Shown one piece after another: positions 14,410 through 17,915 of a stretch of DNA of 64,000 nt. The position numbers and the translations under genes were made by a program. Below the pieces are notes generated by a model, which worked only from the letters and a program-made list of their open reading frames with translations, had not been told where the DNA came from and did no database searches. Numbering within the stretch: position 1 is the first letter of the stretch; the number at the start of each line of letters is the position of its first letter. Source of the stretch: Roseovarius sp. TE539 (GTDB taxonomy: Bacteria; Pseudomonadota; Alphaproteobacteria; Rhodobacterales; Rhodobacteraceae); NCBI RefSeq assembly GCF_003298505.1, contig NZ_QNGB01000005.1, positions 62,001 through 126,000 on the forward strand. Direction: 5' to 3'.

Positions 14410-15858
14410 TCACTTCAATTCCTCCAGCTTGTCGGGGTCGAAACCTGATTTGGCGACGAGCGACACTCCTCCCTTTGACATTTGAACTTCTACGCCCGCA
14501 TCGACCAAAGCAGCTTTCAAGGCATCAACTTCTGAGAAGTCTTTGGAAAGCATAGCGCTTTCTCGAAGATCACCTAGCTTGTGAGCGAAGTGCTCAAGGA
14601 TTCCATCGGAGAGTGTAACCCAAGCCTTCGTTTCAGGTGTCAAAAGACCCAAGAAATTGGCGCACTCTTTTAGGACACGTTTCGTGGCCTCGCTGCCACC
14701 TTCCGCAAATTTTGCAACTTCTTCCAATCTTGAAAGAGCGAGAGGGGTATTCAGATCGTTTGCGATCGCATCGACAATGCCCCATTGCTTCGCATGTTCA
14801 AAATTCGAGAACTGGTTCAGCTCAATACCTTTCACGAGTTTGTGCCATTTCCTAAGCTTGTCCTCAGCAGCAAAGGCCTTCTCCGCCGTCCAGTCCATCG
14901 GCTTGCGGTAATGCGTGCTCAGGAACACGAACCGGATCACCTCGCCCGGCACCTTCCAGCCGCCGTCCCAGTTGCCTTCCAGCAAATCCCGCACGGTGAA
15001 GAAATTGCCCAGGGACTTGGCCATTTTCCGCCCTTCCACCTGCAGCATCTCGTTGTGCATCCAGAGCTTCGCGAACTCCCCGTGCGGATGCGCGCAGCAG
15101 CTTTGCGCGATCTCGTTCTCGTGGTGGGGAAACATCAGGTCGCCGCCGCCGCCATGGATGTCGAAGCTTTCGCCCAGCAATTCGTAACTCATCGCCGAGC
15201 ACTCGATATGCCATCCGGGCCGGCCCCGGCCCCAAGGGCTCTCCCAGCCCGGCAGGTCGTCGGAGGACGGCTTCCACAGCACGAAATCCATCGGGTTGCG
15301 CTTGTAGGGCGCCACCTCCACCCGCGCCCCGGCGATCATGTCATCGACCGACCGGCCCGACAATGCCCCGTATTTCTCGCGCCAGCTATCGATGGCGAAA
15401 AGCACATGCCCCCCGGCCTCGTAGGCATGGCCCCGTTCGATCAGCGTTTCGATCATCGCGATCATCTGGGGGATGTATTGCGTGGCGCGCGGCATGTGGT
15501 CGGGCTCCAGCGCGCCCAGCTCGCCCATGTCGTCAAGAAACCACTGCGTCGTCTGCTCGGTGAGCCGCCGGATCTCGGCCGTCACGTCGCCGTCCCCGCC
15601 CACGTTTTCCAGCGCCCGCGCGTTGATCTTGTCATCAACGTCCGTGAAGTTGCGCACGTAGGTCACGTGATCCGGCCCATATTCAAGCCGAAGCAGCCGG
15701 TAGAGCACGTCAAAGACCACGACGGGGCGCGCATTGCCCAGATGCGCCCGGTCATAGACCGTGGGGCCACAGACATACATGCGCACGTCGTCGGGGTCGA
15801 TCGGGCGGAAGTCCTCCTTCGTCCGGGTCCTGGTATTGTAAAGCCTGATGGTCGTCAT
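14410..15858 (-). CDS. cysS: Cysteinyl-tRNA synthetase
   Basis: A 482-residue class I synthetase charging tRNA-Cys. The zinc/cysteine site starts with [19 protein letters not shown], with HLGN as the HIGH motif. GWHIECSAM and the His-rich [10 protein letters not shown] supply the other zinc ligands, and KMSKS appears as KMAKSLGNF. The start at 15858 has GAGGA five bases upstream. Residues ~327-482 are encoded by clearly AT-richer DNA (42-53% GC per 60-base line against 62-67% just before), suggesting a recombinant 3' third. A leader-peptide attenuator candidate precedes the gene. Confidence 0.95.
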
Positions 15859-15941
15859 TGATGTCCTCGCGCGCGCATCCCGCGGCGGGCTTATCAACTT
15901 GCGTTCATGTTTGGAACAGAAGACCGACCCGCCGAGATGTC

Positions 15942-15983
15942 TCAGCCGGTGATGCAGCAGATAATGGTCGTTGCCGTGGTCAT
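15942..15983 (-). CDS. Putative leader peptide with tandem Cys codons upstream of cysS
   Basis: A 13-codon [16 protein letters not shown], ends 83 bases before the cysS ATG. It contains adjacent TGC-TGC codons (15954-15959). No Shine-Dalgarno is visible, but the predicted promoter places the transcript start at or within a few bases of the ATG, so it would be leaderless, as reported for the trpL leader of Sinorhizobium. A 6-bp hairpin (GCTGAG/CTCGGC, 15941-15946 with 15931-15936) overlaps the stop. Its right arm shares bases with CGGCGGG (15928-15934), which could instead pair with CCCGCCG (15883-15889). The high Thr/Ile content leaves amino-acid specificity open. Inference, not proven. Confidence 0.5.
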
Positions 15984-15990
15984 GACACCG

Positions 15991-16019
15991 AGCTTAGGCC
16001 GAACCCGCGGGCCGGTCAA
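15991..16019 (-). promoter_or_regulatory. Candidate sigma70 promoter for the cysS leader
   Basis: On the minus strand, TTGACC (16019-16014) and TAAGCT (15996-15991) are separated by exactly 17 bases. The -35 matches five of six consensus bases and the -10 three of six. The distance from the -10 to the leader ATG is seven bases, so transcription would begin at about the ATG. Confidence 0.45.
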
Positions 16020-16150
16020 GCAACCGACCGGCCGGTCGTCCGGCTCCCCGGGGACATGCCGCCGCGAACCGGGCCGGAGATCCCTTCCGCACCCCTGTCC
16101 AAACTCGTCGGACCGTTCAAACCGCCGAAGCCGCTGTCGGTGCGGCCACG

Positions 16151-16189
16151 TCTGTTCCGTTTGCGACATTATTTCGCATTCGGAACAGA
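16151..16189. promoter_or_regulatory. 39-base interrupted palindrome, operator candidate
   Basis: The outer arms TCTGTTCCG (16151-16159) and CGGAACAGA (16181-16189) are perfect inverted repeats. The inner arms TGCGA (16162-16166) and TCGCA (16174-16178) are also symmetric about the same centre at 16170. Two nested dyads sharing one centre in an otherwise empty divergent region suggest a dimeric or tetrameric regulator. A related half-site, TTGGAACAGA, is at 15911-15920. The regulator is unknown. Confidence 0.55.
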
Positions 16190-16241
16190 CCCGCGGTGCC
16201 GAATCGGGCCTCACTGATCCACCGGCGAGGAGGAAACGCCC

Positions 16242-16331
16242 ATGACGCAGATGTGCAAGATCACTCTGATCGTCCGAACAATCGGCGCGGAAAGGGGCTT
16301 GGCCCCGCGTGGCGGACCACTGGAAAGCTGA
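16242..16331 (+). CDS. 29-residue upstream ORF before the MttB-family gene
   Basis: ATG at 16242 is preceded by GAGGAGG with eight bases of spacing, the strongest ribosome-binding site in this region. The ORF runs for 29 codons (MTQMCKITLIVRTIGAERG, then a Gly/Pro-rich end) to TGA at 16329-16331. An inverted repeat, GAAAGCTG (16323-16330) and CAGCTTTC (16353-16360), overlaps the stop and lies just before the Shine-Dalgarno of the next gene. This layout suits a regulatory leader ORF; no homologue is recognised. Confidence 0.45.
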   Translation: MTQMCKITLIVRTIGAERGLAPRGGPLES

Positions 16332-16373
16332 CCCGTTTCAACCCTTTACGGACAGCTTTCAAGGATCACCAAC

Positions 16374-17915
16374 ATGACGGAATCAACCACCGCACGCCGT
16401 TCGGGCGGGCGCGCCGCGCGCCGCGCCAGCCGCGCCGCCCCGCTTGAGGATGCGGTCCGCCCGGTCCGTGCCGGCCTCGACGGCGGCAGCTACGCCCCCC
16501 TGACCGACGCCGGGGTCCGGAGCATTCACACCGCTGCCCTCGACGCGCTCGCGGAAATCGGTCTCGCGGACGCGCCGGCCAGTGGCATCGCCCACCTGAC
16601 CAGGGCGGGGGCCACGCTTGGCGCCGACGGGCGGCTGCGTTTTCCGCGCGCCCTTGTCGAAGACGCGGTCGCGCATGCCAACCGCCGGATCACGCTGCAC
16701 GGCCGCGACCCTGCCCATGACCTGCAACTCGGCGGCACCCGCGTGCATTACGGCACCGCCGGTGCCGCGGTGCACATGGTCGATGTCCAGACCCGGCACT
16801 ACCGCGAAAGCACCCTGCAGGATCTTCACGACGCCGCGCGCATCGCTGACCGGCTGGACAATATCCATTTCGTCCAGCGCCCCATGGTCGCCCGCGACAT
16901 CGAAGACGCCCGCGAGATGGAACTGAATACCGTCTATGCCTGTTGTGCGGGCACTTCCAAGCATGTCGGCACCTCGTTCTCCGAGCCCGGCCATGTGACC
17001 GCCGCACTGGAGATGCTTCACATGATCGCGGGCGGCGAGGATGCCTGGCGCACCCGGCCGTTTGTCAGCAATTCCAATTGCTTCGTCGTGCCGCCAATGA
17101 AATTCGCAACCGAATCCTGCCAGGTGATGGAGGCCTGTATCGCGGGGGGCATGCCGGTGTTGCTTCTGTCGGCCGGCATGGCCGGAGCTACCGCGCCCTC
17201 GACCATTGCCGGCGCCATCGTGCAGGCGGTGGCGGAATGCCTTGCGGGGCTTGTCTACGTGAACGCGGTGAAACCCGGCCATCCGGCCATCTTCGGCACC
17301 TGGCCCTTCGGGCTGGACCTGCGGACCGGGGCGATGACCGGCGGCTCGGGTGAACAGGCCCTGCTGAGCGCCGGCTGCGCGCAGATGCACCGGTTCTACG
17401 ACTTGCCCGGCGGCGCCGTGGGCGGGATCGCCGATTCCAAGCTGCCGGACATGCAGGCCGGTTGGGAGGCGATGTGTTCCAATGTCATGGCCGGCTTGTC
17501 AGGGCTCAACATGGTCTACGAGGCGGCCGGGATGCATGCCTCGCTGCTGGGGTTCTGCCACGAGTCGCTGATCCTCGGGGATGACCTGATCGGACAGGCG
17601 TTGCGCTGCACCCGCGGGATCGAGGTGACGGAGGACACGATCAACCTGGATGTCATGCGCGAGACCTGCCTTGATGGCCCCGGTCATTACCTCGGCGCGG
17701 CGCAGACATTGGGGCGGATGCAGTCCGATCATGTCTACCCGGCCCTGGGCGACCGCACCTCGCCAAAGGAATGGGCGGAACTGGACAAGCCGGACCTGGT
17801 GGCCCGCGCCAGCGCCCGCAAGGAGGCGATCCTTGCGGAACGCGCCGCGGCCCGGTTCGATCCGATGCTCGATGCCGCTATCCGCAGGCGGTTCGACATC
17901 CGACTACCGGCCTGA
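16374..17915 (+). CDS. Trimethylamine methyltransferase (MttB) family protein, non-pyrrolysine
   Basis: A 513-residue corrinoid-dependent methyltransferase of the MttB/COG5598 superfamily. Family segments include the N-terminal LTDAGVRSIHTAALDALAEI, YGTAGAAVHMVDVQTRHYR, FVSNSNCFVVPPMKFA and ADSKLPDMQAGWEA. The frame is uninterrupted, with no internal amber codon, so it belongs to the pyrrolysine-free branch, whose characterised members demethylate quaternary amines such as glycine betaine. The first ~30 residues are Arg/Ala-rich. AAGGA lies eight bases before the ATG. No corrinoid protein or reductive activase is adjacent, so the methyl acceptor must be encoded elsewhere. A leader ORF and palindrome upstream suggest tight regulation. 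Confidence 0.88.
   Translation: MTESTTARRSGGRAARRASRAAPLEDAVRPVRAGLDGGSYAPLTDAGVRSIHTAALDALAEIGLADAPASGIAHLTRAGATLGADGRLRFPRALVEDAVAHANRRITLHGRDPAHDLQLGGTRVHYGTAGAAVHMVDVQTRHYRESTLQDLHDAARIADRLDNIHFVQRPMVARDIEDAREMELNTVYACCAGTSKHVGTSFSEPGHVTAALEMLHMIAGGEDAWRTRPFVSNSNCFVVPPMKFATESCQVMEACIAGGMPVLLLSAGMAGATAPSTIAGAIVQAVAECLAGLVYVNAVKPGHPAIFGTWPFGLDLRTGAMTGGSGEQALLSAGCAQMHRFYDLPGGAVGGIADSKLPDMQAGWEAMCSNVMAGLSGLNMVYEAAGMHASLLGFCHESLILGDDLIGQALRCTRGIEVTEDTINLDVMRETCLDGPGHYLGAAQTLGRMQSDHVYPALGDRTSPKEWAELDKPDLVARASARKEAILAERAAARFDPMLDAAIRRRFDIRLPA

Follow-up and report, generated by a model that had tools for sequence, protein, structure and literature searches.

Alternative RNA helices around a conserved, probably leaderless cysteine-codon upstream ORF suggest ribosome-mediated attenuation of cysS in Rhodobacterales and Hyphomicrobiales

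The closest described relative of the leader studied here is uORFC-8-2, which Brewer et al. published in 2021 as a predicted cysS attenuator with an intrinsic terminator (PMC8632094). As the passages of that paper devoted to the element describe it, uORFC-8-2 comprises 145 examples, lies exclusively upstream of cysS and only in Rhodobacterales, and has two prominent stems, the first of which holds the Cys codons, as well as a terminator with a U run. By name, uORFC-8-2 was found in the literature only in PMC8632094. A further relevant kind of element consists of the mycobacterial polycysteine leaderless short ORFs of Canestrari et al. (2020), which, as cited in the relevant parts of PMC9031893 and PMC13236596, exert Cys-responsive attenuation that is translational.

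In this study, we analysed a window of 64,000 nucleotides from Roseovarius sp. TE539. On its minus strand, a candidate -35 element TTGACC (16019-16014) is followed by 17 nt, a candidate -10 element TAAGCT (15996-15991), 7 nt and then an ATG at 15983, which opens a 13-codon upstream ORF (uORF; 15983-15942, with its TGA ending at 15942) carrying TGC TGC as codons 9 and 10 (15959-15954). The uORF stop is separated by 83 nt from the ATG (15858) of cysS (14410-15858, minus strand), and the encoded protein matches the cysteine--tRNA ligase profile TIGR00435 with 413.4 bits against a cutoff of 340. Given this 7-nt spacing between the -10 element and the ATG, transcription is predicted to begin at the A of the start codon itself. 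This is the arrangement proposed in an earlier note on this DNA, namely a minus-strand promoter TTGACC-N17-TAAGCT placed for a start at the ATG of a 13-codon Cys ORF, and every part of it is present in the sequence. A promoter scan of the minus strand from 15600 to 16400 listed no promoter at the uORF and TAAGCT matches only 3 of the 6 consensus bases, so the support for the promoter is comparative. Where ATGs were nested, the uORF had been picked partly by its -10 score, and the position statistics are therefore given for the 115 loci with a single candidate ATG. TTG begins 34-38 nt before the ATG in 94 of these loci versus 49 of 920 shifted positions, and TA occupies the -10 place in 107 of them versus 48 of 920. 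In 135 of all 150 accepted uORFs, 6-7 nt separate the end of the best -10 hexamer from the ATG; C occupies position -1 in 83%, and a Shine-Dalgarno (SD)-like 4-mer precedes the ATG in only 10, whereas 125 of the 150 cysS starts have one (searched in windows of 10 and 11 nt, respectively). The promoter geometry is strong and points to a start of the uORF that is probably leaderless.

The earlier note had named conserved Cys codons upstream of cysS in relatives as the comparison to make, and this comparison bears out the ORF. We found cysS in all 40 genomes searched, our own included, and read 30 loci, of which 24 carry the same genus label; the latter, among them the window's own locus, were fetched solely for having cysS. 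The leader is alignable in 23 of these 24 loci. Its uORF ATG is kept in 23 of 23, and Cys codon 10 is kept in 22 of the 23 aligned loci (22 of the 24 with the genus label), the exception being a locus with a degenerate uORF (L002), while the 24th locus (L017) has no uORF and has lost the leader. Six loci of the same class but of different families (L025-L030) have no such leader, and two of them (L026 and L030) contain just unrelated CC frames. Searched across the whole genome, a pattern for the uORF's CC-end hits a single site, the cysS leader. Searches with Rfam 15 gave no match at gathering score at the leader in the window or in the loci of 12 relatives, and the sole match at E<=5 covers 22 nt upstream of the uORF (E 4.1).

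A covariance model, R1, built from the 23 aligned same-genus loci, matches 309 of 394 family genomes at E<=0.1 (308 of 393 genera), some of these matches being due to chance, and 289 of 394 at E<=1e-3, with 20 matches between 1e-3 and 0.1. A search of the order gave 242 matches in 292 at E<=0.1, all of the matching rows standing under the same family label; from the named loci, we infer that this family (f1) lies within Rhodobacterales. We fetched 130 of the 309 matched genomes, mostly higher-scoring ones, and two were duplicates of genomes already in the set. All 128 matches examined have a CysS motif close downstream, as do 158 of 158 in all loci. The match rate of R1 is a lower bound, because four loci that it did not match (L166, L167, L174, and L176) retain Cys uORFs by eye; 17 of the 20 family genomes listed among the 85 without a match have cysS. 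Extra matches in three genomes (G131, G288, and G414) are weak (E 0.067-0.143) and were taken as chance.

The 158 loci yielded 150 accepted uORFs, 8 loci being dropped because they had none; this count is not independent of the model, since the model itself had supplied 128 of the 158 loci. Acceptance required Cys near the end and one Ile. The accepted uORFs are 13 codons long in 86 cases and 14 codons long in 59; codon 10 is Cys in 129 of them, and codon 9 in 92. Tandem CC is present in 113 of the 150, Cys near the end having been a condition of acceptance, and the Cys codons are TGC in 386 instances and TGT in 21. In its position upstream of cysS in Rhodobacterales, its conserved AUG uORF, its tandem Cys and its predominance of UGC, the leader agrees with uORFC-8-2. 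As a separate observation, one cysS leader (L350) has a uORF, MTFAARIRRSIIIR, without a Cys codon, with the promoter and the stop-codon hairpin motif kept.

The leader is predicted to form alternative helices that share strands. A hairpin, H1ext (ACC.GCUGAG / CUCGGC.GGU; 15927-15950, minus strand), surrounds the uORF stop and is backed by pairing of its H1 core and by swap tests. The segment that we call arm5 (CGGCGGGT, 15927-15934) serves both as the 3' strand of H1ext and as the 5' strand of a competing helix, H2a, in which arm5 (GCGGG) pairs with arm3 (CCCGC), the commonest spacing between them being 36 nt. Pairing and folding tests give arm3 (GCCCGCCG, 15883-15890) two possible partners, arm5 or the cysS ribosome-binding site (RBS), a GC-rich segment that ends in the SD sequence GAGGA (15864-15875). 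The earlier note had described GCTGAG/CTCGGC at the ORF stop and CGGCGGG with CCCGCCG before the cysS SD, with bases in common; both pairings are there, the second as CGGCGGG(T)/(G)CCCGCCG ahead of GAGGA and the cysS ATG, and a third, long-range one involving the start codon had escaped the note. In this helix, H0, the start-codon G together with codons 2-4 pairs with the stretch lying immediately 3' of arm5. It encloses the Cys codons and has H1 inside it. In the window, H0 has, as read by eye, 4 bp only, between GACC (15981-15978), whose first base is the G of the start codon, and GGTC (15925-15922), and a U/C-rich tract, UUCUGUUC (15921-15914), follows it as a possible terminator tract or Rho site.

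Covariation across the family supports these helices. In the same-genus alignment, the six inner pairs of the seven in H2a are kept in 23 of 23 loci and the outermost in 21 of 23. In 100 loci outside model training, 93.0% of cells in the H1 core and H2a are paired versus 86.0% in shuffles (0/500), and two-sided changes occur in 10 of 11 pairs. The alignment of these 100 loci was fitted to the structure, which is why the slid controls matter; they are paired at 14-60%. One locus (L116) has GCAGGC/GCCTGC in H2a and, in the uORF, CCTGC, so that the two partners have changed in step. Swap tests, which ignore the relatedness of loci, were run after six of the 150 rows had been dropped for want of a clean H2a and then one more (L078) for a wrong helix, leaving 143 loci. 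For H0, own pairs reach -7.98 kcal/mol versus -6.16 when swapped (z -11.9, 0/2000; controls -1.5, -1.3, and +3.0), and at least 5 bp form in 103 of 143 own pairs versus about 47% of swapped pairs; 73 of 143 are in register from nt 3 with at least 5 bp, the pair table showing GC, AU, and CG at equivalent positions. H1ext gives a z of -11.1 (144 loci), and the z of -23.3 for H2a was set aside as circular, since its arms had been chosen as the best helix per sequence. Comparison of the loci thus backs the uORF, the promoter geometry and the covariation of H0, H1ext, H2a and, more weakly, of arm3 with the RBS. Two other pairings were tried and dropped: an anti-SD function of the H2 loop (GUCUUC with GAGGAC) has no covariation in the family (z 0.1) and was abandoned for Rhodobacterales, and a small inner helix in that loop (CUUC/GAAG) is weak (z -2.1, 33/2000). 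We also saw by eye, in two loci (L145 and L148) whose stop-to-arm5 distance is above the usual, an extra GC-rich hairpin between the uORF stop and arm5.

Folding calculations on the 143 leaders, in which a ribosome was modelled by masking the RNA that it would cover, indicate how translation of the uORF may select among these helices. With no ribosome, arm5 pairs with the uORF (median 0.70) and H2a has a median of 0.00 (mean 0.18). With a ribosome stalled on the Cys codons, H2a rises to medians of 0.48-0.69 (means 0.48 and 0.58), and with a ribosome at the stop it stands at a median of 0.03 (mean 0.23). The corresponding H2a values in the window are 0.00 when free, 0.00 and 0.41 for stalls on the first and second Cys codons, and 0.00 at the stop. 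Computation therefore finds alternative, mutually exclusive helices, one of which would be blocked by a stalled ribosome, as is characteristic of a ribosome-mediated attenuator. With no ribosome present, arm3 pairs more with the SD region (mean 0.43) than with any other partner, and 0.20 of it is unpaired. Opening the RBS costs a median of 14.3 kcal/mol with arm3 free versus 8.3 with H2a enforced, and the difference exceeds 2 kcal/mol in 121 of 143 loci and is negative in 8. Much of this cost is due to composition, because a shuffled arm3 still costs 12.7 kcal/mol versus 14.6 for the real one, which is the costlier in 95 of 128 loci (15 more loci had been dropped from this set for a distant cysS start). 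Between arm3 and the RBS, we found modest covariation (z -4.6, 0/2000; control -1.4), weaker than that of H0, H1ext, or H2a; an initial swap of arm3 and SD with shorter segments gave nothing (z 0.6). Ensemble accessibility of the SD is nearly flat, with a median of 0.44 (mean 0.44) when free and 0.47 (means 0.47-0.48) when stalled, and the translational arm of the model thus draws on the opening energies and the modest arm3:RBS covariation. We favor a reading of these folds in which ribosome-mediated Cys attenuation would act at least partly on translation.

The model that we consider reasonably probable is that the leader is a ribosome-mediated attenuator through which cysS senses the supply of Cys-tRNA, acting on H1ext and H0 versus H2a and on the cysS RBS. 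Transcription would start at the AUG of the 13-codon uORF, which 70S ribosomes would translate without a leader. Given ample Cys-tRNA, the ribosome would complete the uORF and depart, H1ext and H0 would fold and occupy arm5, and arm3, left free, would pair with the GC-rich cysS RBS and keep translation low, and a fraction of the transcripts may in addition end at the pyrimidine tract that follows H0. Under a shortage of Cys-tRNA, the ribosome would stall on Cys codon 9 or 10 and cover the 5' strand of H1ext, and the freed arm5 would pair with arm3 as H2a, uncovering the RBS and allowing cysS to be made. Within this scheme, ribosome stalling, the direction of the response and its placement at translation are what we infer.

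Other mechanisms have to be weighed against this one. Classical transcription attenuation, as proposed for uORFC-8-2, would have H0 and H1 form an intrinsic terminator with a U run, which a Cys-stalled ribosome would prevent. The part of PMC8632094 on the element states that the U run is consistent with a terminator stem, and the tract after H0 is indeed U/C rich, with U at tail positions 1-7 in 59, 55, 44, 69, 46, 62, and 65 of 103 loci. Nevertheless, the tract is broken by C (position 1 in 31 and position 3 in 40 of 103), and in the second order described below it is more C rich, position 1 being C in 56% and U in 24%. Terminator-like sites are absent from the minus strand between 15600 and 16400, which agrees with the caveat of the earlier note that there was no T-run terminator; a canonical terminator on that strand was accordingly rejected. 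The conserved, covarying H2a would also be left without an obvious role, as arm3 is made about 25 nt after the tract. On balance, we regard termination as the main mode of control as unlikely. Rho-dependent attenuation would make the pyrimidine-rich H2 loop a Rho site that is exposed after the ribosome leaves and hidden by H2a. The loop is conserved and C/U rich, and a uORF-dependent, presumably Rho-dependent attenuator has been reported in Sinorhizobium meliloti (PMC12218461), but the loop, mostly 33-40 nt long, falls short of the roughly 90 nt given in the relevant part of that report, and we give this possibility little credence. That the leader is an ordinary 5' UTR element, conserved for RNA stability or for another factor without regulatory translation of the uORF, seems highly improbable, given that conservation covers the frame, the start codon, the stop position and the Cys codons, and that the wobble base changes in the codons for Ile and other residues.

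A different question is which amino acid a ribosome-mediated attenuator of this kind would sense. The leader peptide is richer in Ile codons than in Cys codons in the window (15942-15983) and in its relatives from two orders. Ile is the commonest residue in the 150 uORFs of the first set (31% versus 22% for Cys) and makes up 28.7% versus 11.2% for Cys in the 100 uORFs of the second order, figures that are somewhat inflated by the acceptance rules, under which a uORF of the first set needed one Ile and a uORF of the second needed two. The rules account for only part of the surplus, and CC frames picked without an Ile condition contain the same residues. Cys sensing alone gives no reason for the Ile excess. 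The peptide could instead sense Ile, with or without Cys, or cause nascent-chain arrest, as might be suggested by the preponderance of Ile in both orders, by the use of both AUU and AUC with other AU-rich codons being rare, and by the Ile fixed third from the stop in 98 of 100 second-order uORFs. Branched-chain amino-acid synthesis is also reported to be disturbed by cysteine (PMC11893703). Against this idea, the model matches that were checked sit upstream of cysS (128 of 128 and 90 of 90) and not of Ile genes, and in Corynebacterium glutamicum added isoleucine did not relieve Cys inhibition according to one passage of PMC11893703, the abstract of which speaks of slight relief. The literature supports a link between cysteine and threonine deaminase only indirectly. 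We find Ile sensing or arrest rather improbable, and Cys would be the amino acid that the attenuator senses.

Outside Rhodobacterales, we saw by eye leaderless-looking Cys uORFs in the same layout before cysS in Devosia, Ensifer adhaerens, Rhizobium leguminosarum, Mesorhizobium, Phyllobacterium, Bradyrhizobium, and Stappia. Devosia and Stappia belong to Hyphomicrobiales, and we take Ensifer, Rhizobium, Mesorhizobium, Phyllobacterium, and Bradyrhizobium to belong there as well. A second covariance model, R2, built from 11 sequences, matches 149 of 297 genomes (75 of 123 genera) at E<=0.05 and 104 of 297 at E<=1e-3 in the order of genome G780, which would be Hyphomicrobiales, as identical leader peptides indicate. 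All 90 loci fetched there have a CysS motif, and 88 of 90 have an accepted uORF, acceptance in this set requiring two Ile and favoring Cys, GCTAGC at the stop, a -10 and, for upstream ATGs, a -35. Two of 102 loci were dropped because they lacked a uORF, and the remaining 100 uORFs include the 11 R2 sequences and one from a third order. Cys is present in 98 of the 100 (30 have one Cys and 2 none), and TTGA lies 35-39 nt upstream in 97, the choice of uORF having favored such features. After removal of 14 repeated peptides among the 100, swap tests on the 86 distinct peptides gave z values of -9.5 for H0, -8.2 for H1, -3.2 for H2, -3.1 for tail:SD, and -2.6 for down:SD, with controls at -0.9, +0.6, and +1.7; by the tail:SD value, an anti-SD function of the H2 loop is weakly supported there. 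When one more row without an H2 of 5 bp is left out, the RBS opening cost falls from 13.8 to 10.3 kcal/mol, the difference being above 2 in 56 of 85 loci and negative in 16. In a third, small order, 4 of 4 genomes matched and cysS lies downstream in the one that was read. A class-wide sample gave 5 matches of R2 in 289 at E<=0.01, so that the leader, as R2 sees it, is far from universal in the class. The earlier note had named Rhodobacterales for the comparison and could not have foreseen the extension of the leader to another order. In a locus of a further order (L266, 1-1270), the leader and cysS follow another gene, presumably one for glutamyl-tRNA synthetase, with a T-rich stretch between.

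Read together, these comparisons tentatively outline a switch conserved widely among Alphaproteobacteria, whose OFF fold would have as one of its strands the very start codon with which a leaderless leader ORF begins at the 5' end. Loading of ribosomes onto the bare AUG and decoding of Cys, possibly also of Ile, would jointly set the transfer of arm5 to arm3 and the opening of the cysS RBS, a two-input translational attenuator for an aminoacyl-tRNA synthetase common to Rhodobacterales, Hyphomicrobiales, and at least one further order; we hold this broader view as possible, with less than even confidence. The leader is a simple, testable case of amino-acid attenuation with a leader ORF that has no Shine-Dalgarno sequence. 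Should the start codon form part of the OFF helix, initiation without a leader would be an input to regulation in its own right. The published model, with its terminator and its restriction to Rhodobacterales, would also need revision. Because relatives of laboratory organisms, in Rhizobium and Ensifer, carry the leader, existing transcription-start and ribosome-profiling data could serve at once; the main text of an S. meliloti transcription-start paper (PMC3616915) does not name cysS.

Elsewhere in the window, Rfam PYLIS_3 matches at 17428-17526 (plus strand) with 40.6 bits (gathering score 38), within a trimethylamine methyltransferase-like ORF of 513 aa (16374-17915) that has no in-frame stop and scores 343.3 bits with TIGR02369 against a cutoff of 525. 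The lack of an in-frame stop and the score below the cutoff suggest that this ORF is probably a non-pyrrolysine homologue.

As far as the passages of PMC8632094 on uORFC-8-2 go, that element and the leader in the window are alike in having a tandem-Cys uORF before cysS in Rhodobacterales and in the ribosome-mediated attenuation proposed for them. An H0 that encloses the Cys codons, with H1 inside, fits the published wording on the stems. The two differ in the position of Cys, which the paper puts usually at codons 14-15 and which is at codons 9-10 in the window; in the U run, in place of which we find a U/C-rich tract after H0 with no clean U run; and in range, uORFC-8-2 being confined to Rhodobacterales and the leader here occurring also in Hyphomicrobiales and one further small order. 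The word "leaderless" does not occur in the main text of PMC8632094, and arm3 and the RBS are not mentioned in its relevant passages. Among literature titles, mainly of non-subscription papers, we recognised none on a leaderless start or a Hyphomicrobiales version of the cysS leader.

Mycobacteria belong to another phylum than the window organism, and ermC-type translational attenuators respond to macrolides rather than to an amino acid and are not leaderless. As described in parts of PMC9031893 and PMC13236596, the mycobacterial polycysteine ORFs resemble the window uORF in being leaderless with contiguous Cys codons, a likeness drawn from description; they serve cysteine biosynthetic genes (PMC13236596), whereas the window uORF precedes cysS. 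In the sections consulted of PMC10117765, trpL/rnTrpL of Sinorhizobium meliloti is likewise an alphaproteobacterial leaderless leader ORF, with a 14-aa peptide and a transcript that starts at the AUG, but it is a tryptophan attenuator that yields a small RNA. What stands of the interpretation in the earlier note is a Cys uORF ahead of cysS that is conserved and probably leaderless, together with two pairings that exclude each other, as ribosome-mediated attenuation would lead one to expect; what falls is its novelty, since the element had been published as uORFC-8-2 (PMC8632094, in the passages cited above). The core element is thus already known as a prediction, and the leaderless Cys attenuator as a kind is known from mycobacteria, as cited in the sources above. 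New with respect to these systems are the promoter geometry indicative of a leaderless start; the predicted H0 helix, which would place the start-codon G and codons 2-4 within the off-state fold; an alternative helix that modelling favors on a Cys stall and whose 3' strand would otherwise pair with the cysS RBS; and the same layout, as judged from comparison of leaders, in a second order.
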